Positions 3,528 to 12,659 of a stretch of 64,000 nucleotides of DNA are shown here, piece by piece. The position numbers were made by a program, and so were the translations under genes. The stretch is from NCBI RefSeq assembly GCF_030053135.1, contig NZ_CP125652.1, positions 310,001 to 374,000 on the forward strand, written 5' to 3'. Numbering within the stretch: the stretch's first letter is position 1; every line of letters starts with the position of its first letter. Origin of the DNA: Rhizobium sp. BT04 (GTDB lineage Bacteria; Pseudomonadota; Alphaproteobacteria; Rhizobiales; Rhizobiaceae). The notes under the pieces are model-generated. The model saw only the letters and a program-made list of their open reading frames with translations, ran no database searches and had not been told where the DNA came from.

Positions 3528-6185
3528 TCACTCCGCGGCGGCAGTCAGACAGCGATCGATGATCCTGCCGATTTCGCTGCGGCAGGAGCCGCAATTGGTT
3601 CCGGCGCTGGTTTCCTTGCCGACCGCCTCGACGCTGTGGCATCCGCCGCGCACGGCGGCAGCGATCTGGTTGACCCCGACACAGAAGCAGGAGCAGACGG
3701 TGGCGCCTGGATCCGGCCTGCCGGCGCCGGGGCGGCCTGCAACGAGCGCAAAGCGTTTCCGGAGATCGCCATGCGAGGCTGAAAGCTGCGAGATCGCCCA
3801 GTTGCGTGCGACGGCGACGGGCTCGCGTGCCAGAAACAGCGCGGCAAGCAGGACCTCGGCATCGAAGAAGGCGAGCCTAAGGTCGCCGGATTGCCGGTCG
3901 GCATAACCAAGCGGTTCGATCTCTGCCGGAATGGCGAAAACCGCCCGGCACCAGGCCGTCCAGTCTTCGACGGCCTCAGTGAAGGCAAGCTCCAGCCGCC
4001 AGCCGCCATCGGCTTTCGCCAGCGCCCAATAGGCGGCATCTGGTGTTTCCGGTTTTGTCGCCGAGACGGCGAAGCCGTAATGCGTGGCGCGGAAGGGCCG
4101 GACGGCGACGGCGACGTTCTTCGACGCCGGCTGGCCGGAAACGGGATCGGTGATCGGCGCGACCACGGCGTCGATCCGTGCTTTGGCCGCGAACTGGTCG
4201 TTCCAGTGCATCGGCGCAAAGATGCCGCCGCGGGCCTGGCGATCGGTCACCAGCGCCCGGACGATTGCCTTGCCATACGGACTGTCGATCTCGACGAGAC
4301 CGGCGCTCGATATGCCGGTCTCGATCGCGTCGCGTGGATGGATCTCCGCGAAAGGTTCGGCGATATGGGCGGAAAGCCGTGCGCTCTTTCCGGTGCGGGT
4401 CATCGTGTGCCACTGGTCGCGAATGCGCCCGGTATTCAGCGTGAAGGGGAAGTCGGCATTGGTGCGGTTCGTTTCGGGTGGCTTGACCGCGACAAAACGC
4501 GCCTTGCCATCGGCATGGTAGAAACCGCCCTCGGCGAAGAAGCGGGTGACGCCGGCTTCGGTCCCTGCCGCCTGTGGCCACTGGAAAGGCGACAGCGCGT
4601 CATAGACGTCCCCGCTCATGCCGGCGCGCGCGCCGATATCGAAATCGCGGCTGCCGTTATTTTCGAAGGCGGAAAGGGCGGCATGTTCGGAGAAGATCTC
4701 CACCGGCGCGTCGAAATCGAAAGCGGCGGCAAAGCCCATCCGGCGTCCGACCTCGGCAAGCTGCCACCAGTCGGCTTTCGCATCGCCGGGGAGCCCGAGA
4801 AACGGCCGCTGCCGTGAAATGCGCCGTTCGGAATTGGTGACGGTGCCGTCCTTCTCGCCCCAGCCGAGCGAAGGCAGAAGCACATCTGCATGCCGGGCCG
4901 TATCCGTCTCTCTCCGGATGTCCGAGACGACGACGAAGGGACAGGCGGCGATCGCCCTTTCGACGCTGTCGGCATCCGGCATCGAGACGACCGGATTGGT
5001 GGCCATGATCCAGAGCGCCTTGATGCGCCCGTCGGCCACCGCACGGAACATGTCGACCGCCTTCAGGCCGGGTTTTGCGGCGATGACCGGCGAATTCCAG
5101 AAGCGCTGCACCCGGTCGCGATCGTCAGCATTTTCGATTGCCATATGAGCTGCCAGCATGTTGGCAAGGCCGCCGACCTCGCGCCCGCCCATGGCGTTCG
5201 GTTGGCCGGTCAGCGAGAACGGCCCCATGCCCGGGCGGCCGATGCGGCCGGTCGCCAGATGGCAGTTAAGGATGGCATTGACCTTGTCGGTGCCGGAGGA
5301 GGACTGGTTGACGCCCTGGCTGTAGCAGGTCACGACTTTCGGCGTCGTCTCGAACAGGCGGAAGAACTCCCGGATCTGCATGGCCGGCAGCCCGGTGCGT
5401 TCCAGGAGATCGTTGATATCAAGTGCTGCGGCCGCCGCAAAAGCGTCGCCGAAACCTTCGGTATGAGCGGCGATATAATTCTGGTCGATGGCCGGGCTTG
5501 TCGCGAGATGGGCAAGCAGTCCCATGAACAGCGCGACGTCGCCATCGGGTCGGATCGCCAGGTGCAGGTCGGCGATATCGCATGTCATCGTCCGGCGCGG
5601 ATCGATGACGACGATCCGCAAGTTGGGCCGCGCTGTCTTCGCGGCGGCAAGCCGCTGGTAGATGACGGGATGACACCAGGCAAGATTGGAGCCGATCAGG
5701 ATCACCAGATCCGCAAGTTCGATATCCTCATAGGTCCCGGGCACGGTATCGGCGCCGAAGGCGCGGCGATGCCCCGCCACCGAGGAGGACATGCAGAGCC
5801 TTGAATTGGTGTCGATATTGGCCGAGCCGATGAAGCCCTTCATCAGCTTGTTGGCGAGGTAATAATCCTCGGTCAGCAGCTGGCCAGAGACATAGAAGGC
5901 AACGGAATCTGGCCCGTGTTCAGCGATCGTTTCGGAGAAACGCCGGGCGACTAAGTCAAGCGCTTCGTCCCAGCCGCTGCGCTCGCCTGCAATTTCGGGA
6001 TGGAGAAGCCGGCCGTCGAGATCGATGGTTTCGGCAAGCGCCGACCCCTTCGAGCAGAGCCGGCCGAAATTCGACGGATGCTCGGGATCGCCCTTGACGC
6101 TGACGGTTCCGGCCTCGTCGACCGTGGCGATAACGCCGCAGCCGACACCGCAATAGGGACAGGTGGTCTTGACCTCAGCCGCCAT
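3528..6185 (-). CDS. nasA: Assimilatory nitrate reductase, catalytic subunit
   Basis: 885 residues, cytoplasmic (no Tat signal). Reduces nitrate to nitrite using Mo-bis-MGD. A 4Fe-4S cluster is bound by Cys9, Cys12, Cys16 and Cys44 (CPYCGVGC, then RLCSKGS). Cys131 in NSRLCMSS is the likely molybdenum ligand. Molybdopterin oxidoreductase and dinucleotide-binding domains follow. The last ~56 residues are a BFD-like [2Fe-2S] domain (VCSCFCVGVNQI, then TNCGSC) that probably takes electrons, as in Klebsiella-type NasA. Last gene of narK-nirB-nirD-nasA; its ATG follows the nirD stop directly, indicating translational coupling. Confidence 0.96.
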   Translation of the reverse strand: MAAEVKTTCPYCGVGCGVIATVDEAGTVSVKGDPEHPSNFGRLCSKGSALAETIDLDGRLLHPEIAGERSGWDEALDLVARRFSETIAEHGPDSVAFYVSGQLLTEDYYLANKLMKGFIGSANIDTNSRLCMSSSVAGHRRAFGADTVPGTYEDIELADLVILIGSNLAWCHPVIYQRLAAAKTARPNLRIVVIDPRRTMTCDIADLHLAIRPDGDVALFMGLLAHLATSPAIDQNYIAAHTEGFGDAFAAAAALDINDLLERTGLPAMQIREFFRLFETTPKVVTCYSQGVNQSSSGTDKVNAILNCHLATGRIGRPGMGPFSLTGQPNAMGGREVGGLANMLAAHMAIENADDRDRVQRFWNSPVIAAKPGLKAVDMFRAVADGRIKALWIMATNPVVSMPDADSVERAIAACPFVVVSDIRRETDTARHADVLLPSLGWGEKDGTVTNSERRISRQRPFLGLPGDAKADWWQLAEVGRRMGFAAAFDFDAPVEIFSEHAALSAFENNGSRDFDIGARAGMSGDVYDALSPFQWPQAAGTEAGVTRFFAEGGFYHADGKARFVAVKPPETNRTNADFPFTLNTGRIRDQWHTMTRTGKSARLSAHIAEPFAEIHPRDAIETGISSAGLVEIDSPYGKAIVRALVTDRQARGGIFAPMHWNDQFAAKARIDAVVAPITDPVSGQPASKNVAVAVRPFRATHYGFAVSATKPETPDAAYWALAKADGGWRLELAFTEAVEDWTAWCRAVFAIPAEIEPLGYADRQSGDLRLAFFDAEVLLAALFLAREPVAVARNWAISQLSASHGDLRKRFALVAGRPGAGRPDPGATVCSCFCVGVNQIAAAVRGGCHSVEAVGKETSAGTNCGSCRSEIGRIIDRCLTAAAE

Positions 6186-6530
6186 CTATTCCGCCGCCAT
6201 CATCAGGCTTTCAAGCGCGATGAAGAGGGCGCCGTCCTCGTTGCGGACCGGTATGGTCCGCACCTCGCCCTGGTCGGCGCCGAGCGCCTTGCCGGTTTCG
6301 AGAGAAATCACCCAATTGTGCAGCGGGCAGGTGACGGCCTTGGCATGCACAATGCCCTGGGAGAGCGGACCGCCCTTATGCGGGCAGTGATCCTCGATGG
6401 CGAAGACCTCGTTTTCGGCCGTGCGGAAGACGGCGATCTTGCCCTGCGGCGTCTTCACGCAACGCGCGCCGCGCAGCGGAATATCGGAGATGTCACCGAT
6501 CGGATGCCAGTTTTCATTGGGCCAGTTCAT
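6186..6530 (-). CDS. nirD: Nitrite reductase (NADH) small subunit, Rieske-type
   Basis: 114 residues from the ATG at 6530, chosen because AAGGAG lies 6 bases upstream; an ATG two codons earlier sits right on the ribosome site. A Rieske [2Fe-2S] motif is intact (HCPHKGGPLSQG with Cys-x-His, then CPLHNW with Cys-x-x-His), unlike E. coli NirD where the ligands are lost. It is the partner of NirB in six-electron reduction of nitrite to ammonium. The start lies 10 bases beyond the nirB stop, in the same operon. Confidence 0.95.
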   Translation of the reverse strand: MNWPNENWHPIGDISDIPLRGARCVKTPQGKIAVFRTAENEVFAIEDHCPHKGGPLSQGIVHAKAVTCPLHNWVISLETGKALGADQGEVRTIPVRNEDGALFIALESLMMAAE

Positions 6531-6540
6531 GTCCATCTCC

Positions 6541-8991
6541 TTACTCGGCTGCCTGCGGATAGCCGATCGTCGCCATCGGCTTGAACTCGTGCTTGTCCTT
6601 GCCGGAAACACGCTCCGACCAGGGATCGACCTGGGCAAATTTCTGGCTGAAGACGAAGCGGTCGTAATAGGCCTTGCGCTTTTCGGCATCACCCATGATC
6701 TGGCGGCGGATTTCCTCCAGGCCGATGCGCTTGGCCCACTTGTAGATGCGCTCGAGATAGCGGGCCTGCTCGCGGTACATCTGCGTCAGTGCCACGATAT
6801 GCTCCAGCGCCTCGTCTTCGGTCTTCACGAGGCCGAGCACTTCCGTGCCCTTGATGTCGAGACCGGCCGCACCGGCGAAATGGATCTCGAAACCGGAATC
6901 CACGCAGATCACGCCGATATCCTTGCAGGTTGCTTCCGCGCAGTTGCGCGGGCAGCCGGAGACGGCCATCTTCAGCTTGGCCGGCGTCCAGGAGCCCCAC
7001 ATGAACCTCTCGATGCGAATGCCGAGACCGGTGGAATCCTGTGTGCCGAAGCGACACCAGTCAGAGCCGACGCAGGTCTTCACCGTGCGCAGACCCTTGG
7101 CATAAGCCTGGCCGGAGACGAAACCGGCCTTGCCGAGATCGGCCCAGACGGCGGGCAGGTCTTCCTTCTCGATGCCGAGCAGGTCGATGCGCTGGCCGCC
7201 CGTGACCTTCACCATCGGAATCTCGAACTTGTCGACGACATCGGCGATGGCGCGCAGCTCGTTCGCATTGGTGACGCCGCCCCACATGCGCGGAACGACG
7301 GAGTAGGTGCCGTCCTTCTGGATGTTGGCGTGGACGCGCTCATTGATGAACCGCGACTGGTAGTCGTCGGCATATTCATCCGGCCAGTCGCAGACGAGGT
7401 AATAGTTGAGCGCCGGCCGACATTTGGCGCAGCCGCAGGAAGTCTTCCATTCGAGCTCCTGCATGACGGCAGGGATGCTCTTCAGACCCTTGGCCTTGAT
7501 CAGCCGGCGAACGTCGTCATGGCCGAGTTCGGTGCAGGTGCACATCGGCTGTACGGCAGTCGGATTGTAGCTGTCGCCGAGCGTCAGCGCCATGAGTTGT
7601 TCGACGAGGCCGGTGCAGGAGCCGCACGAGGCGGATGCCTTCGTGTGCGCACGCACGTCGTCGAGCGACGTCAGCCCTTTGCCTGAAATCGTCGAGATGA
7701 TTTTACCCTTGCATACGCCGTTGCAGCCACAGATCTCCGCGTCATCCGGCAAGGCTGCAACGGCCGCCATAGGGTCCAGCGGCGACCCTCCCTGATAGGC
7801 CTGTCCGAAGATCAGCGTCTCGCGCATCTCCGAAATATCGGTTGCCTTCTTTTTCAGGTCGTTGAACCAGGCGCCGTCGGCGGTTTCGCCGTAAAGCACG
7901 GTGCCGATGATCTTATTGTCCTTGAGCACCAGGCGCTTGTAGACGCCGGCGCTGGCATCGCGCAGCACGATCTCCTCGCGGTCGTCGCCGTCGGCGAAAT
8001 CGCCGAGCGAATAAAGCTCGATGCCGGTGACCTTGAGCTTGGTTGGCGTATCCGCGTGAACGAAGGCGGGCGAGCGATCGCCGGAGAGATGCGCGGCGGC
8101 GATACGGGCCATTTCATAGAGCGGCGCAACGAGGCCATAGACCATGCCGCCGACCTCGGCACATTCGCCGAGCGCGAGAATATCGCCATCCGAGGTCTGC
8201 ATGCCGGCATCGACGACGATGCCGCGATTGACCGCAATGCCGGCGTCCTTCGCCAGGCCGACACTCGGACGAATGCCGACGGCCATGACGACCAGTGTTG
8301 CCGGGATGATGCGGCCGTCGTCAAGCTCGATGCCCTCGACCCGGCCGTCGCCGATAATCGCCTTGGTATTGGCCTTGCAGATGACCTTGATGCCGCGTTC
8401 CTCGACCGCCTTCTGCAGCAGATAGCCGGCGGCAGGATCGAGCTGGCGCTCCATCAGCGTCGGCATGACGTGCAGGACGGTGACGTCCATGCCGCGCTGG
8501 GCAAGACCGGCCGCCGCTTCCAGGCCAAGCAGGCCGCCACCGATGACAACAGCCTTTTCGCGCGACTGAGCGGCGAGCAGCATGGCCTGCACGTCGTCGA
8601 GATCGCGATAGGTGATGACGCCGGGCAGATCCTTCCCGGGAACCGGGATGATGAAGGGCACGGAACCGGTTGCGATCACCAGCTTGTCGTAGCTTTCGGT
8701 GACGCCGTGGTCGGAGGTGACGGTCTTGGCTTCACGATCGATATTGACGATCTTGTGGCCCTTGTAGAGCATGATGCCATGCTTGATATACCAGCCGTCG
8801 CCGTGAATGATGATCTGCTCGTAGTCCTTTTCTCCCGAGAGAACCGGCGACAGCATGATGCGGTCGTAATTGACGCGCGGCTCGGCATTGAAGATCGTAA
8901 CTTCATAGCGACCCGGCGCCTGCTCGAAGAGGTGCTCCAGCATGCGCCCGGGCGCCATGCCATTGCCGATGATGACAAGTTTTTCGGTCAT
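6541..8991 (-). CDS. nirB: Nitrite reductase (NADH) large subunit
   Basis: 816 residues, cytoplasmic. Domains in order: FAD-binding pyridine-nucleotide oxidoreductase start (LVIIGNGMAPGR), NADH-binding GGGLLGLEAA near residue 155, a BFD-like [2Fe-2S] domain (CGCNGVCKGKI), and the siroheme/4Fe-4S sulfite-nitrite reductase domain with ligand Cys640, Cys646 (CVGSDWC), Cys680 and Cys684 (CPRNC). Catalyses NADH-dependent reduction of nitrite to ammonium with NirD. It follows narK by 17 bases and precedes nirD, giving import, nitrite reduction and nitrate reduction in one transcript. Confidence 0.97.
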   Translation of the reverse strand: MTEKLVIIGNGMAPGRMLEHLFEQAPGRYEVTIFNAEPRVNYDRIMLSPVLSGEKDYEQIIIHGDGWYIKHGIMLYKGHKIVNIDREAKTVTSDHGVTESYDKLVIATGSVPFIIPVPGKDLPGVITYRDLDDVQAMLLAAQSREKAVVIGGGLLGLEAAAGLAQRGMDVTVLHVMPTLMERQLDPAAGYLLQKAVEERGIKVICKANTKAIIGDGRVEGIELDDGRIIPATLVVMAVGIRPSVGLAKDAGIAVNRGIVVDAGMQTSDGDILALGECAEVGGMVYGLVAPLYEMARIAAAHLSGDRSPAFVHADTPTKLKVTGIELYSLGDFADGDDREEIVLRDASAGVYKRLVLKDNKIIGTVLYGETADGAWFNDLKKKATDISEMRETLIFGQAYQGGSPLDPMAAVAALPDDAEICGCNGVCKGKIISTISGKGLTSLDDVRAHTKASASCGSCTGLVEQLMALTLGDSYNPTAVQPMCTCTELGHDDVRRLIKAKGLKSIPAVMQELEWKTSCGCAKCRPALNYYLVCDWPDEYADDYQSRFINERVHANIQKDGTYSVVPRMWGGVTNANELRAIADVVDKFEIPMVKVTGGQRIDLLGIEKEDLPAVWADLGKAGFVSGQAYAKGLRTVKTCVGSDWCRFGTQDSTGLGIRIERFMWGSWTPAKLKMAVSGCPRNCAEATCKDIGVICVDSGFEIHFAGAAGLDIKGTEVLGLVKTEDEALEHIVALTQMYREQARYLERIYKWAKRIGLEEIRRQIMGDAEKRKAYYDRFVFSQKFAQVDPWSERVSGKDKHEFKPMATIGYPQAAE

Positions 8992-9008: not shown

Positions 9009-10277
9009 TCAGGTTGCAGCCAGGGGCGCCGCGTGCCCTTGGCGCGACAGTTGCTTGACGGACAGGTGCATCCAGATGAGAGAGATCACGACGATCGCAA
9101 AGAGCAGCAGGAAACAGCTGGACCATAAGCCGGTCATGTCTTTGAGGAGGCCAAAGGCGATCGGAAGGATGAAGCCGCCAAGGCCGCCCATCATCCCGAC
9201 GATACCGCCGACGGCGCCGACGTTTTCGGGGTAGTAGGCCGGAATGTGCTTGTAGACGGCAGCCTTGCCGAGGCTCATGAAGAACCCGAGCACGAAGATG
9301 ACGACGATGAAGATGACGGGGGTGATACCGAAGGCCGGACCCGTCCCGTCCCCAGAAGCAGCCGGCAGCGAAAGGATGAGGGTGGCCACGGCCGATACGG
9401 CAAGCATCGTATACATCACGCTGCGCGCGCCCTTCTTGTCCGACAGCACGCCGCCGAAGGCGCGGAAGATACTGCCCGGGATGGAGTAGGCGGCCGCGAT
9501 CATGCCGGCGGTTTCCAGATGGAAGCCGTAGACGCCGACCAGATAGCGCGGCAGCCACAGCGACAGGGCGACGAAGCCGCCGAAGGCGAAGAAATAGTAG
9601 AGCGAGAAGCGCCAGACCTGGACGTTCTGCAGCGGCGCGAATTCCTCGGCAAAACTCCTGGAGGCGACGCGGCGTTCGCGGCGGAGACGGTAGGCCGGAT
9701 CATCGGTCGTGGTGAACCAGAAGACGATTGCCATCAGCGCCAGACAGACGGCCCAGATCTCCGCGACCGCCTGCCAGCCCCATGCGAGCAGTACAAAAGG
9801 GGCGGCGAATTTGGTTACGGCCGCGCCGACATTGCCGGCACCGAAGATGCCGAGTGCGGTTCCCTGTTTCTCCGCCGGGAAGAAAGGCGAGACATAGGCG
9901 ACACCGACCGCAAAGGAACCGCCGGCCAGGCCGACGCCGAGGCCGGCGATCAACATCTGCGTATAGGTCTGGGCGTAGGAGAGCAGGAAAGTCGCCAATG
10001 CGGCGGCCAGCATGGTGAGCGTGTAGACGAGACGGCCGCCGTAGCGCCCCGTCCAGATGCCAAGAACGATGCGCACCAGCGAGCCGGTAAGGACGGGGGT
10101 GCCGACCAGCAATCCGAACTCGGCCTCGTTCAGCCCGAGATCCTGCTTGATGCGAATGCCGATGATCGCGAAGATCGTCCACACGGCAAAACAGAGGGTG
10201 AAGGCTACAGTGGAGATCCACAATGCTTTGGCTGGTTCGCCGGCCGACATGGGCAGTGCTTTCTCGATGACAGACAT
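9009..10277 (-). CDS. narK: NarK-type MFS nitrate/nitrite transporter
   Basis: 422 residues with about 12 hydrophobic segments. Nitrate-transporter signature region AGLGVGLAGGSFAVGVAYV followed by FFPAEKQGTALGIFGAGN; a second Gly-rich signature GAVGGIVGMMGGLGGF lies near the end. The ATG at 10277 is preferred (GGAG five bases upstream) over an in-frame TTG at 10298. First gene of the nitrate assimilation operon; it imports nitrate across the inner membrane. The sigma-54 promoter, NasT-type hairpins and terminator at 10326-10600 lie directly upstream, so expression should need both nitrogen limitation and nitrate or nitrite. Confidence 0.95.
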   Translation of the reverse strand: MSVIEKALPMSAGEPAKALWISTVAFTLCFAVWTIFAIIGIRIKQDLGLNEAEFGLLVGTPVLTGSLVRIVLGIWTGRYGGRLVYTLTMLAAALATFLLSYAQTYTQMLIAGLGVGLAGGSFAVGVAYVSPFFPAEKQGTALGIFGAGNVGAAVTKFAAPFVLLAWGWQAVAEIWAVCLALMAIVFWFTTTDDPAYRLRRERRVASRSFAEEFAPLQNVQVWRFSLYYFFAFGGFVALSLWLPRYLVGVYGFHLETAGMIAAAYSIPGSIFRAFGGVLSDKKGARSVMYTMLAVSAVATLILSLPAASGDGTGPAFGITPVIFIVVIFVLGFFMSLGKAAVYKHIPAYYPENVGAVGGIVGMMGGLGGFILPIAFGLLKDMTGLWSSCFLLLFAIVVISLIWMHLSVKQLSRQGHAAPLAAT

Positions 10278-10325
10278 AACTTCTCCGAGGCTCGACAAGG
10301 TCGTGCCGATCCATCGCTGAGGGTT

Positions 10326-10392
10326 AAAACAAAAAGCCGCTGGTCAGGACGCGCATACACGAGGTGCGCGAAATATCCTGATCAGCGGCTTT
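10326..10392 (-). terminator. Leader attenuator (intrinsic terminator) of the nitrate operon
   Basis: Two 17-base arms (10376-10392 and 10333-10349, one mismatch) enclose an inner stem (CGCGCA at 10350-10355 with TGCGCG at 10365-10370). On the minus strand the hairpin ends in TTTTTGTTTT. It sits about 50 bases before the narK start, inside the transcript, so it acts as an attenuator and not as an end-of-gene terminator. NasT is expected to prevent it. Confidence 0.8.
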
Positions 10393-10398
10393 GCTGGT

Positions 10399-10418
10399 GG
10401 CGCCCGCCGTTGGACGCC
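10399..10418 (-). promoter_or_regulatory. ANTAR/NasT-type RNA hairpin next to the attenuator
   Basis: On the minus strand a 7-bp stem (GGCGUCC with GGGCGCC, one G-U pair) closes the hexaloop AACGGC. A at loop position 1 and G at position 4 are the bases known to be read by ANTAR-domain antiterminators. The hairpin ends 6 bases before the attenuator stem, the position expected for the second hairpin of the two-hairpin ANTAR motif. Confidence 0.6.
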
Positions 10419-10546
10419 GAATATGTGGCCTTCTGGCCCATTTGCCTGGATGCAATCCTTAGGCCAGATTGCTCAGGCTAAAACCTATCTCTTCAATCTG
10501 AAGAGTAATCTTTGTGTCTTCTATGAACGCCTATCACACGCTCATT

Positions 10547-10574
10547 CTGCGCTGATCGCCATTGATCGGCGCAA
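10547..10574 (-). promoter_or_regulatory. Second A-x-x-G hexaloop hairpin at the 5' end of the nitrate operon leader
   Basis: On the minus strand an 11-bp stem (one C-A mismatch, one terminal wobble) closes the hexaloop AAUGGC, nearly the same as the AACGGC loop near the attenuator. The predicted sigma-54 start (about 10573) places it at the very 5' end of the RNA. It is over 120 bases from the attenuator-side hairpin, longer than the usual short linker, so its role as first hairpin of the pair is tentative. Confidence 0.45.
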
Positions 10575-10583
10575 TATACCTCC

Positions 10584-10600
10584 TGCAAACTGCGTGCCAG
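10584..10600 (-). promoter_or_regulatory. Sigma-54 (RpoN) promoter of narK-nirB-nirD-nasA
   Basis: On the minus strand CTGGCACGCAGTTTGCA is a full match to the -24/-12 consensus TGGCAC-N5-TTGCA with correct GG-to-GC spacing. Predicted start near 10573, giving a leader of about 296 bases before narK. Sigma-54 dependence implies an NtrC-type activator; I found no convincing NtrC dyad upstream. Confidence 0.85.
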
Positions 10601-10756
10601 TTTGTTGTCGTTTGTGTAAGTCGTTGACTGTAAATAATATTTTCCGAAATATAACGGATGCTTGTTTTTCGGGCCGTCATCAGTCGTGCAAATCTTTTGT
10701 GCGCTTGTTGTGAGGCAGGCAGATCCTTGCTGGCGTTTTGTGCAGGCCGGCGTCAA

Positions 10757-12031
10757 TCAGACCTCGTCGTCGGATATAAAGGGCAGGGCGCTTTTGACGG
10801 CAAAGCCTGCGACATAGTCCGGCAGCTTCGCCGGGTCGAAGACGTGGCCGTCCATGAAACGGTCGCCCTCGTCGACACCCTCGATGCGGATATCGGCATC
10901 ATCAGGTGTGTTCCTGTCGCCGAGAGCCGTCCGGTAGAGATCCGGACGGTAGGCGGAGGCGGCCGCCCTTGCCATGTTGAGGCTGACCTCGGCCTGTCCC
11001 CAGCGGATCATCTGGCTGTAGATCCACAGCGCCTGGCTCGGCCGGGGATAATTGGCGAAGCCGGAATGGAACATGAAATAATCGGCGATGATGCGGCGGT
11101 TACCCTTTGCATCGAGGCTGAATTCGCCGGCGAGTACACGGCGAATGATCTCGACGGGGGCAGCGATATAGCGGGGGTCGGCAAGAGCTGCCGCCAGCGC
11201 GTTGTGATTTTCCGCCTGGTCGCACCAACGGGCTGCCGCGTCGAGCGCCACGATCAGCCTGGAAACGGTTTCCGGATGGCTATCCGCCCAATCCGGCCGC
11301 ATGCCGATCACCTTTTCCGGTGCCGACGGCCAGATATCCTGCTTGGCAGCGACGATGCGGCCGACGCCGCGCTCCGAAGCGACCATGTTCCACGGCGCAC
11401 CGACGCAGAAACCGTCAATCGCACCGGCTGCCAGCGCATCCGAAGTCATGGGCGGCGGCACGACGACGAGCTTGACGTCCTTGTCGGGATCGATGCCGCC
11501 GGCCGCCAGCCAGTAGCGGAATTCGTAGTTGTGCGAGGAGAAGGGATAGGTGACGCCGAAGGTCGGCAGCGGCTCGCCGCGCGCTTTCATTGCCGCCAAT
11601 GTTTTTGCCAGGGCGCGGGCATTGTCGAGCGCGCTTGCCGTTTCCGGCAATCCTGCTTCATCCCGCATCCTGTCGAAGAGCCGCGTCGACAGCGTGATCG
11701 CGTTGCCGCCGCGCCCCAGCGAAAATGGCGTGATCGTCGGTGAGGGATTGGAGCCGAGGCCGAGCATGGAGGCGACGGGCATCGGCGACAGCATGTGGGC
11801 AATGTCGAACTGTCGGAATGCCAGGCGGTCACGCACATTCGCCCAGGAGACGTCCTTGACGAGATCGAGCGTCAGGCCTTCCTTCCGCGCGAAGCCGAAT
11901 TCTGCGGCCGCAATCAGCACCGATGCATCGACGAGCGGAATGAAACCGGCCCGCAGTACTTTCGGTCCTTCGTTGTTCACCCGCACGGGCGAGGGCATGT
12001 CGCCGCCGGAGTTGGAGGTCGTTGTCATCAT
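10757..12031 (-). CDS. nasS: NasS, cytoplasmic nitrate/nitrite sensor of the NasST system
   Basis: 424 residues from the ATG at 12031 (GGAG five bases upstream). It is built like the periplasmic nitrate-binding proteins NrtA/CmpA (LRAGFIPLVDASVLIAAAEF, then DIAHMLSPMP) but begins without a signal peptide or lipobox, so it stays in the cytoplasm. In known systems NasS holds NasT inactive and releases it when nitrate or nitrite binds. It lies 34 bases after nasT on the same strand. A long gap with the sigma-54 promoter follows, so the structural genes have their own promoter. Confidence 0.9.
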   Translation of the reverse strand: MMTTTSNSGGDMPSPVRVNNEGPKVLRAGFIPLVDASVLIAAAEFGFARKEGLTLDLVKDVSWANVRDRLAFRQFDIAHMLSPMPVASMLGLGSNPSPTITPFSLGRGGNAITLSTRLFDRMRDEAGLPETASALDNARALAKTLAAMKARGEPLPTFGVTYPFSSHNYEFRYWLAAGGIDPDKDVKLVVVPPPMTSDALAAGAIDGFCVGAPWNMVASERGVGRIVAAKQDIWPSAPEKVIGMRPDWADSHPETVSRLIVALDAAARWCDQAENHNALAAALADPRYIAAPVEIIRRVLAGEFSLDAKGNRRIIADYFMFHSGFANYPRPSQALWIYSQMIRWGQAEVSLNMARAAASAYRPDLYRTALGDRNTPDDADIRIEGVDEGDRFMDGHVFDPAKLPDYVAGFAVKSALPFISDDEV

Positions 12032-12071
12032 ATCCACTCCGGTTTCCTCCGGAAATTCATCAGGTCGGCCA

Positions 12072-12659
12072 TTACATCAACAGCCCCGCGGCAGTGACGA
12101 CGCTCTGGGCGATTTCCGACATCTTCTTCTTTTCGTTCATCGCTGTCTGGCGCAGCAGGGCGAAAGCCTCTTCCTCCGACAGGCCGCGCATCTTCATCAA
12201 TATGCCCTTGGCGCGCTCGACCAGCTTGCGTTCCTCCAGCGCGGAGCGGGCATCGGCAAGCTCCCGCCGTAGCCGGTTGAAGGCATTGAAGCGACTGACG
12301 GCCATGTCGAGGATCGGTTTGACCCGTTCCTTCTTCAATCCGTCGACGATATAAGCCGAGACGCCGGCATCGACGGCAGCCTCGATCGAGGCCGTGTCGG
12401 AGCGATCGACGAACATGGCAATCGGGCGGCTGACCGTGCGCGTCAGCTGGAACAGATGCTCCATCATGTCGCGGTTGGGATTCTCGATATCGATGATGAT
12501 CACGTCGGGCATCAGCGTTTCGATGATTCGCGCGATGCCGTTGACCTCGTGGACCACGGTGACGCGCACATGCCCTGCCTCGCGCAGTCCTTCTTCGATG
12601 ATGGAGGCGCGTATGGCATTTTCGTCGATCACCAGAATTGTCAGATCGAGATGCGTCAT
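12072..12659 (-). CDS. nasT: NasT, ANTAR-domain response regulator/antiterminator
   Basis: 195 residues. An N-terminal pseudo-receiver domain (LTILVIDENAIRASIIEEGL, PDVIIIDIENPN, VDAGVSAYIVDGL) is joined by a coiled-coil helix (LRRELADARSALEERKLVERA) to a C-terminal ANTAR RNA-binding domain (AKGILMKMRGLSEEEAFALLR). ANTAR proteins bind paired hairpins with A-x-x-G hexaloops and block terminators. Such hairpins and a terminator lie before narK. nasT and nasS are co-transcribed. Confidence 0.95.
   Translation of the reverse strand: MTHLDLTILVIDENAIRASIIEEGLREAGHVRVTVVHEVNGIARIIETLMPDVIIIDIENPNRDMMEHLFQLTRTVSRPIAMFVDRSDTASIEAAVDAGVSAYIVDGLKKERVKPILDMAVSRFNAFNRLRRELADARSALEERKLVERAKGILMKMRGLSEEEAFALLRQTAMNEKKKMSEIAQSVVTAAGLLM

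Follow-up and report, generated by a model that had tools for sequence, protein, structure and literature searches.

The nitrate operon leader and its genes

In the 64,000-nucleotide (nt) stretch of Rhizobium sp. BT04 analyzed here (contig NZ_CP125652.1, positions 310,001 to 374,000; hereafter the window), a leader with a sigma-54 promoter, three hexaloop hairpins (P0, P1 and P2) and an intrinsic terminator was located on the minus strand at 10600-10331, between nasS (end 10757) and narK (ATG at 10277), the first gene of a nitrate assimilation operon (Table 1). The interval of the original prediction, 10278-10600, was correct, and its elements all lie, as it had stated, on the strand of narK-nirB-nirD-nasA. 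The regulatory genes nasT and nasS are the two genes immediately upstream of the leader and adjoin the target operon, as in a NasS-NasT system. NasT aligned to EutV (6wsh) at 2.7e-20 and was the sole ANTAR protein found in its own genome. The grouping of narB with nirD-nirB and a narK-like gene has been described in R. etli (PMC6514139); the word NasT is absent from the main text of that paper.

Table 1. Features of the narK leader, the adjoining genes and the nrtA leader of the same genome
Feature	Position	Strand	Basis or remark
nasT, receiver and ANTAR RNA-binding antiterminator	12072-12659	-	Pfam ANTAR 4.1e-21, Response_reg 2.9e-9
nasS, nitrate/nitrite sensor (NMT1-like binding protein)	10757-12037	-	Pfam NMT1_2 2.9e-74
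NtrC-like enhancer site TGCACAAAACGCCAGCA	10728-10744	-	best 17-mer within 200 nt upstream of the box
Sigma-54 -24/-12 promoter TGGCACgcagtTTGC (= TGGCACGCAGTTTGC)	10585-10599	-	exact match to TGGCACN5TTGC
P0, 5'-end hairpin, hexaloop AAUGGC	10548-10573	-	starts at predicted +1 (~10573)
H1, hairpin with 7-nt loop, no hexaloop here	10523-10545	-	same place as the hairpin in class B leaders
Decayed remnant of class B P2b	10507-10518	-	stem and G4 lost in the window
Possible relic of resident class A sigma-54 promoter TGGCCTAAGGATTGC	10452-10466	-	8/10 positions, 55 nt before P1 loop
Short hairpin GGCC-AGAA-GGCC	10427-10438	-	resembles one preceding P1 in compact class A leaders
P1 (recruitment hairpin), GGCGUCC.AACGGC.GGGCGCC	10399-10418	-	stem of 7 base pairs
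P2 (antiterminator hairpin), CAGC.AAAGCC.GCUG	10383-10396	-	stem of 4 base pairs
Intrinsic terminator	10331-10392	-	five-T run 10335-10331; stem alone -30.9 kcal/mol
narK, nitrate/nitrite major facilitator superfamily transporter	9009-10277	-	Pfam MFS_1
nirB, nitrite reductase large subunit	6541-8991	-	Pfam NIR_SIR and others
nirD, Rieske-type small subunit	6186-6536	-	Pfam Rieske_2
nasA/narB, assimilatory nitrate reductase	3528-6185	-	Pfam Molybdopterin
nrtA leader, class B	L218:1430-1600 (own genome, contig C1)		promoter+P0+H1 match

The leader from 10573 to 10330 folded with a z score of -6.06, and none of 200 shuffles folded as well. Hairpins with an AxxGxx hexaloop that score at least as high as P1 were found seven times on the plus strand and six times on the minus strand of the 64 kilobases (kb), P0 and P1 included, and two of them within one 250-nt leader are therefore not expected by chance. 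The exact promoter box was unique in the window on both strands. Since matches with up to two mismatches (75) were no more frequent than chance (shuffle mean 66.9), only the exactness and the conservation of the box count as evidence. The predicted +1 lies near 10573, which would put P0 right at the start of the RNA, where the original prediction had placed its AAUGGC hairpin. The NtrC-like site was scored with a simple consensus; scores of at least 7.5 were reached by 61% of 115 upstream regions, versus 1.9% of mononucleotide shuffles. A similar NtrC-site consensus appears in PMC5424462. An imperfect palindrome with TGCA/TGCG ends (CGTGCAAATCTTTTGTGCG, 10685-10703) lies between nasS and the promoter and is perhaps a second activator site.

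P1, P2 and the terminator

P2 starts 2 nt downstream of P1, and its loop and 3' arm are also the 5' arm of the terminator, so that the two structures compete for bases 10392-10383 and are mutually exclusive. In folds of transcripts growing from P1, P2 was present with ends from 10383 to 10341 and was displaced by the terminator at 10335. The AACGGC hairpin (P1) and the terminator had both been recognized before, the latter with a T run about 50 bases upstream of narK; the run consists of five T and ends about 53 nt before the ATG. The pairing proposed between AAUGGC and AACGGC did not hold, however, because P2, with loop AAAGCC, had been overlooked and is the actual partner of P1. Two hairpins of at least 3 base pairs with 6-nt loops, A1 and G4 in both loops, and a second hairpin exclusive with the terminator characterize a dual-hexaloop site, and all of these were present. 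Judged by its sequence, P1-P2 with the terminator is the standard ANTAR/NasT arrangement.

Conservation of the pair was measured in 80 narK loci fetched by protein similarity, using a P1 pattern with fixed A1 and G4 and a P2 pattern with fixed G4 and A or G at position 1. Both hairpins were found in 63 of the 80 loci, giving 49 distinct sequences, among which the window stands for the identical relative L002. A1 and G4 of P1 and G4 of P2, all demanded by the patterns, were present in 49/49, and A1 of P2, where G was also allowed, in 48/49. In the alignment 92.8% of 538 cells were paired, compared with at most 57% in slid versions. The covariation score, the percentage paired and the number of double-change cells exceeded those of all 500 shuffles, and the other two measures were reached by 7 and 9 of the 500, although relatedness can also raise such counts above shuffles. 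The third pair of P2 was AU in 25 sequences, GC in 23 and GU in one. The outer pair was open in 13 (P1) and 26 (P2) of the 49, and the inner pairs were closed.

The P1 pattern was unmatched in 17 of the 80 loci: five Sinorhizobium/Ensifer loci with related, mismatched hairpins, L069 (a truncated contig), L047 and ten others. The Sinorhizobium/Ensifer leaders (L028, L030, L032, L055 and L060) kept the sigma-54 box and hexaloop-like hairpins; no T run followed the hairpins and no NasS or NasT match was found in the stretch examined. Such leaders may have lost attenuation or altered it.

A covariance model of P1-P2 gave one strong match in the own genome, at 61 bits, and the next one at 24 bits. 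Moderate matches of the model in L184-L187 lie inside an open frame, look like chance and were discarded. Two class A P1-P2-terminator leaders, L182:2501 and L183:2501, appear real and precede a small conserved protein and an apparent molybdopterin oxidoreductase, perhaps as a second NasT-type operon in some Rhizobium genomes.

P0, the two leader classes and the conflict between trees

Of 148 genomes of the genus searched with the P1-P2 model, 108 gave a match with an E value of 0.01 or below. In some of these no match scored above about 24-28 bits, which is close to the score of the second match in the own genome. A narK-leader match was taken from 95 of these genomes (all better than 2e-8, own genome included). 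Together with the window and the 80 narK loci they made 176 sequences, of which 140 were kept, 115 of them distinct. The 36 dropped sequences all came from the 80 narK loci and failed the sigma-54 pattern (many of them) or the P1-P2 pattern, so the box and A1/G4 of P1 and P2 are present in 115/115 by construction. Spacing between the box and the P1 loop was bimodal, with 38-60 nt in 58 compact leaders and 99-199 nt in 57 long leaders, which we call hybrids.

P0 was present in all 57 distinct hybrids, with its loop 21 nt (54 leaders) or 22 nt (3 leaders) after TTGC; the search demanded A1, G4 and the flanking stem bases, and no long leader failed it. No P0 was found at 21-22 nt after TTGC in the 58 compact leaders, five of which carry an AxxGxx hairpin of at least 3 base pairs elsewhere between box and P1 (5, 6, 6, 18 and 18 nt after TTGC). 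Among the hybrids, A1, A2 and G4 of the P0 loop were fixed (57 each), position 3 varied (T28, C18, A7, G4), position 5 was G in 44 and A in 13, and C6 was found in 56/57. The four inner pairs were closed in 57/57, the variable one being AU in 36, GU in 20 and GC in one, and every hybrid thus carries a candidate NasT site, an A1/G4 hexaloop on a closed stem. Outside the promoter, the lowest column entropies, averaged by group, were those of the inner stem of P0 and of its loop positions 1, 2 and 4.

Two further ideas about the hybrids were dropped, and a third is a hint. An alternative antiterminator was at first suggested by 8 nt of complementarity between the 3' arm of P0, GAUCAGCG, and the terminator arm, CGCUGAUC; by eye, without counting, the match was not kept across the leaders inspected (e.g., GATCTG, GACCGG or GATCGG versus a near-constant CTGATC). 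H1 as a degenerate hexaloop was also dismissed by eye, its loop lengths being variable. The possible class A promoter relic at 10466-10452 is only suggestive, since its offset of 55 ranks fourth and offsets 19-21 score higher.

The original prediction had read P0 and P1 as the two hexaloops of a single ANTAR site spread over more than 120 nt, and both loops are indeed AxxGxx and conserved. That model is very improbable, however, because P1 is partnered at closer range by P2, which overlaps the terminator, 58 distinct leaders carry P1-P2 without P0, and the promoter-to-P1 distance ranges from 99 to 199 nt among the hybrids. Longer linkers also abolish EutV function: in vitro, antitermination was lost when the linker between the hairpins was lengthened by 20 nt, which disfavors a pair 129 nt apart (PMC8934654). 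The wide gap that had seemed anomalous disappears once P1 is paired with P2, 2 nt away, and P0, 129 nt upstream of P1, is then a third element that comes from another leader class.

This other class was recovered with a model of promoter, P0 and H1, which matched in 77 of 394 genomes of the family and in 21 of 109 genera. A second match in the own genome (69.7 bits) lies on another contig in the leader of a gene that we take, from its sequence, to be nrtA, encoding the binding protein of a nitrate ATP-binding cassette transporter. At 31 loci built from model matches, the gene downstream was nrtA in 24 (21 of these with a nasS match) and narK in 7, including 4 hybrids, one of them the window. 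The class B set was drawn from 71 of the 83 listed places plus L047; removal of six that failed a 4-base-pair rule and of the four hybrids left 62 distinct leaders. The six (L047, L226, L228, L237, L250 and L254) show an AxxGxx loop and GAC.AxxGAC.GUC and stand outside the 62. Class B leaders lie directly before narK in L047, L198, L216 and L217, the cassette of nasT, nasS and leader thus preceding different first genes.

All 62 class B leaders contain the box, P0, H1 and a second hexaloop hairpin, P2b (GAC.AxxGxx.GUC), with ten different loop sequences. All 62 passed the P2b pattern, which demanded a loosely defined stem with A1 and G4 in the loop, and the stem was GAC/GUC in 62/62. The gap from P0 (taken with a 9-nt arm) to P2b is 27-38 nt, with H1 in between, and the GUC arm of P2b opens the terminator stem in all 62 full-length folds. 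Six of ten pairs of the class B P0 stem had changes on both sides. For the whole structure, four of five measures exceeded all 500 shuffles and the fifth was reached by 44.

At the gathering score, Rfam returned only transfer RNAs in the window and 13 relatives. The consensus of one family, RF03032 (narK RNA), reads as the class B layout, with a sigma-54 box, an AACGGC hexaloop hairpin and GACAAAGACGUC. Its scores were below the gathering score of 43.2 bits for the window leader (17.2 and 14.5 bits) and for the own nrtA leader (26.3 bits, aligned over the full length), and none of 21 genomes of the genus matched at the cut-off. We infer from these sequences that RF03032 is kin of class B.

Protein comparisons divided the locus in two. 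Against the window, 15 named hybrid loci were 85-96% identical in NasS and 92-100% in NasT. Nine class A loci (L016-L020 and L023-L026) were 82-90% identical in NarK and 91-95% in NirB, and 40-42% in NasS and 67-70% in NasT; in L021 and L022 neither NasS nor NasT was found in the stretch examined. In the NasS tree a branch with support 100 parted all 29 class A rows from class B and hybrids, the hybrids forming one group (92). A Shimodaira-Hasegawa-like approximate likelihood ratio of 88 placed the hybrids inside class B in a tree in which hybrids L189, L190, L191 and L197 were labelled class B; the tree was repeated with L190, L191 and L197 as hybrids (two being identical to named rows) and without L189, which is the window. 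The NasT tree, with class B rows from 16 upstream stretches and L047, parted class A from the rest at 99. In the tree of NarK plus NirB, by contrast, the hybrids were one group (99) inside a set of Rhizobium rows, 13 from hybrids and 8 from class A (95).

Because the NasS and NasT trees conflict with those of NarK and NirB, the leader is read as a chimera, a recombination junction. On the evidence of the trees and alignments, nasT-nasS-promoter-P0-H1 and narK-nirB have different histories, with the boundary between H1 and P1. By the same comparison, the incoming block is of the class found mostly upstream of nrtA, and P1-P2 with narK-nirB is resident class A, in the R. leguminosarum/etli group. 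Intact P2b was found in 0/57 hybrids versus 62/62 class B leaders, a loose loop remnant in 27/57 hybrids, and a five-T run between P0 and P1 in 2/57. By this comparison, the incoming second hairpin has decayed since the joining, and P0 stayed. An origin in the opposite direction, through acquisition of a class A P1-P2 by a narK operon under a class B leader, would agree with the class B leaders that precede narK in L047, L198, L216 and L217. We consider it unlikely, because in the tree of NarK alone 16 hybrid rows join four class A rows (96), and the class B narK loci fall outside this group.

The NasT lineages also differ at, or close to, the RNA-contacting positions of EutV. The EutV residue numbering of PMC8934654 was matched to our NasT-EutV alignment, in which the EutV tyrosine stacking on G4 corresponds to residue 166 of NasT. 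Residue 166 was Tyr in 29/29 class A proteins, and Phe in 13/13 hybrids and 16/17 class B proteins (Tyr in one). Residues 176-178 were Q, N and R in class A (28, 29 and 29 of 29) and E, K and K in all 30 others. These differences might set the loop preference. Loop position 5 of P1 was considered as a sign of co-adaptation, being G in 49/57 hybrids and A in 47/58 compact leaders; it is a hint only, weakened by the hybrids being one group and by G in several Mesorhizobium class A leaders.

Proposed control and relation to known systems

We think it probable that the operon is controlled by NtrC/sigma-54 initiation and by NasS-NasT antitermination at P1-P2 in a chimeric leader, with P0 retained as an extra NasT docking site. 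Two-input control had been suggested in the original prediction, and it is supported at the level of sequence by the sigma-54 box, the NtrC-like site upstream, the NasT-type attenuator, the adjoining nasT and nasS and the single ANTAR protein. Under nitrogen need, phosphorylated NtrC with sigma-54 would initiate near 10573, as the motifs suggest. Without nitrate, NasS would hold NasT and the transcript would stop at the terminator. With nitrate or nitrite, NasS would release NasT, which would dock on the P1 hexaloop and pass to the emerging P2; P2 held closed would occupy the 5' arm of the terminator, and polymerase would read into narK-nirB-nirD-nasA, a function expected from the family. In Paracoccus denitrificans, NasS frees NasT on nitrate or nitrite and NasT binds the leader RNA (PMC3795266), and an NtrC input to nas control has been described (PMC5424462). 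Structural work on EutV assigned recruitment to P1 and antitermination to P2, with one hexaloop as the minimal binding site (PMC8934654).

Several points weigh against this reading or parts of it. The architecture, its conservation and the conflict between trees are seen in the sequences; the start site, termination and the binding of NasT and NtrC are inferred. The P1-P2 linker is 2 nt in the window versus 5-12 nt in eut leaders, where cutting it to 3 nt hurt function (PMC3369931). In B. diazoefficiens, deletion of nasT raised rather than lowered narK, which has predicted NasT hairpins (PMC6759348), and the second of two Paracoccus hairpins could be changed with little effect (PMC5424462). 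An approximately unbiased test did not reject a NasS tree with hybrids and class A against class B (p 0.305), and the hybrids may therefore be either nested in class B or sister to it. P2b has just three invariant pairs. When the first 40 nt from GAC onward were folded, its hairpin formed in 44 of the 62 leaders, and it did not form in short folds of the own nrtA leader, so that the case for P2b is built more on its position and conserved loop than on folding energy. The two outer P0 pairs were open in 43/57 and 47/53 hybrids. Within the hybrids the inner pairs hardly vary and further pair types were reached by 265 of 500 shuffles, which is why the covariation of P0 there is thin.

P0 would have outlived the loss of its original partner as an early-loading NasT site at the 5' end of the RNA. 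Since EutV work allows binding to a single hexaloop (PMC8934654), P0 could bind NasT alone, and most likely it still does; whether it matters for regulation seems to us about evenly balanced. A stronger version is that P0 is a working third NasT site, a 5' loading hairpin that would capture NasT at initiation and hand it over to P1-P2 more than 120 nt later. It would have been kept throughout the group because the swapped-in NasT, with Phe at the G4-stacking position, matches the hairpin of its own cassette, and the resident P1 loop would have shifted towards AACGGC, the sequence of the incoming loop. We offer this only tentatively.

It is conceivable, and deserves serious consideration, that P0 is instead a passenger left over from the incoming leader and retained for the promoter, the initially transcribed sequence or 5'-end stability, without a role for NasT. 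The constant spacing between promoter and P0, the weakness of the outer P0 stem and its thin covariation would agree with this, and with the hybrids forming one group in the trees the conservation of P0 may be partly shared descent. A passenger would be harder to reconcile with A1, A2 and G4 fixed in 57/57 though loop position 3 takes all four bases, with A-U, G.U and G-C alternatives that keep the inner stem closed throughout, and with the decay of the incoming second hairpin. A negative role, in which the extra hexaloop titrates NasT or delays its arrival at P1 and so sets a threshold, is improbable, as a cis site is stoichiometric with its target on the same transcript and titration would be slight.

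The P1-P2 switch is an ordinary ANTAR leader. Like EutV of E. faecalis, the system has two adjacent A1/G4 hexaloop hairpins, the second overlapping an intrinsic terminator, and a receiver-ANTAR protein (PMC3369931, PMC8934654); it differs in the short linker, in the third hexaloop 129 nt upstream and in the sensor NasS. The NasS-NasT nas operons of Paracoccus share the regulator pair, the leader attenuator and the NtrC input (PMC3795266, PMC5424462), and NasS-NasT control is also known for nosR in Bradyrhizobium (cited in PMC6759348). Altering hairpin HI had severe effects in Paracoccus and altering HII mild ones (PMC5424462), and the leader studied here differs from these in being chimeric and in carrying P0. 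The Klebsiella NasR/nasF leader likewise combines nitrate-responsive ANTAR antitermination with Ntr control, but NasR itself senses nitrate and there is no NasS (PMC5424462, PMC3795266). RF03032 resembles class B in layout and in the full-length alignment of the own nrtA leader; it differs in its sub-threshold scores and in the single hairpin drawn by Rfam, whereas Rhizobiaceae class B leaders have H1 between two hexaloops. Three features are, to our knowledge, new: a chimeric leader whose 5' end bears a third hexaloop, a cassette uniting regulators and leader, and a class B motif interrupted by H1. No title or abstract describing any of them was found in searches of the open-licence PMC literature.

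No nasT or nasS was found within the 3 kb examined around the class B leader of nrtA in the own genome. With one ANTAR protein in the genome, a single NasT would therefore have to serve two leader classes, one of them in trans.

The hybrids amount to a natural experiment in the construction of ANTAR antitermination systems. A single cassette made up of the regulator pair, its promoter and its first docking hairpin seems to have been grafted onto another attenuator, and one group of nitrogen-fixing symbionts has retained the combination. The class B hairpin within a linker of 27-38 nt fits badly with the strict linker limit of EutV (PMC8934654). Questions of spacing and of extra sites could be addressed with these leaders, which combine three hexaloops with two spacings and with two lineages of NasT distinguished by the G4-stacking residue, in an operon that serves nitrate assimilation in legume symbionts.
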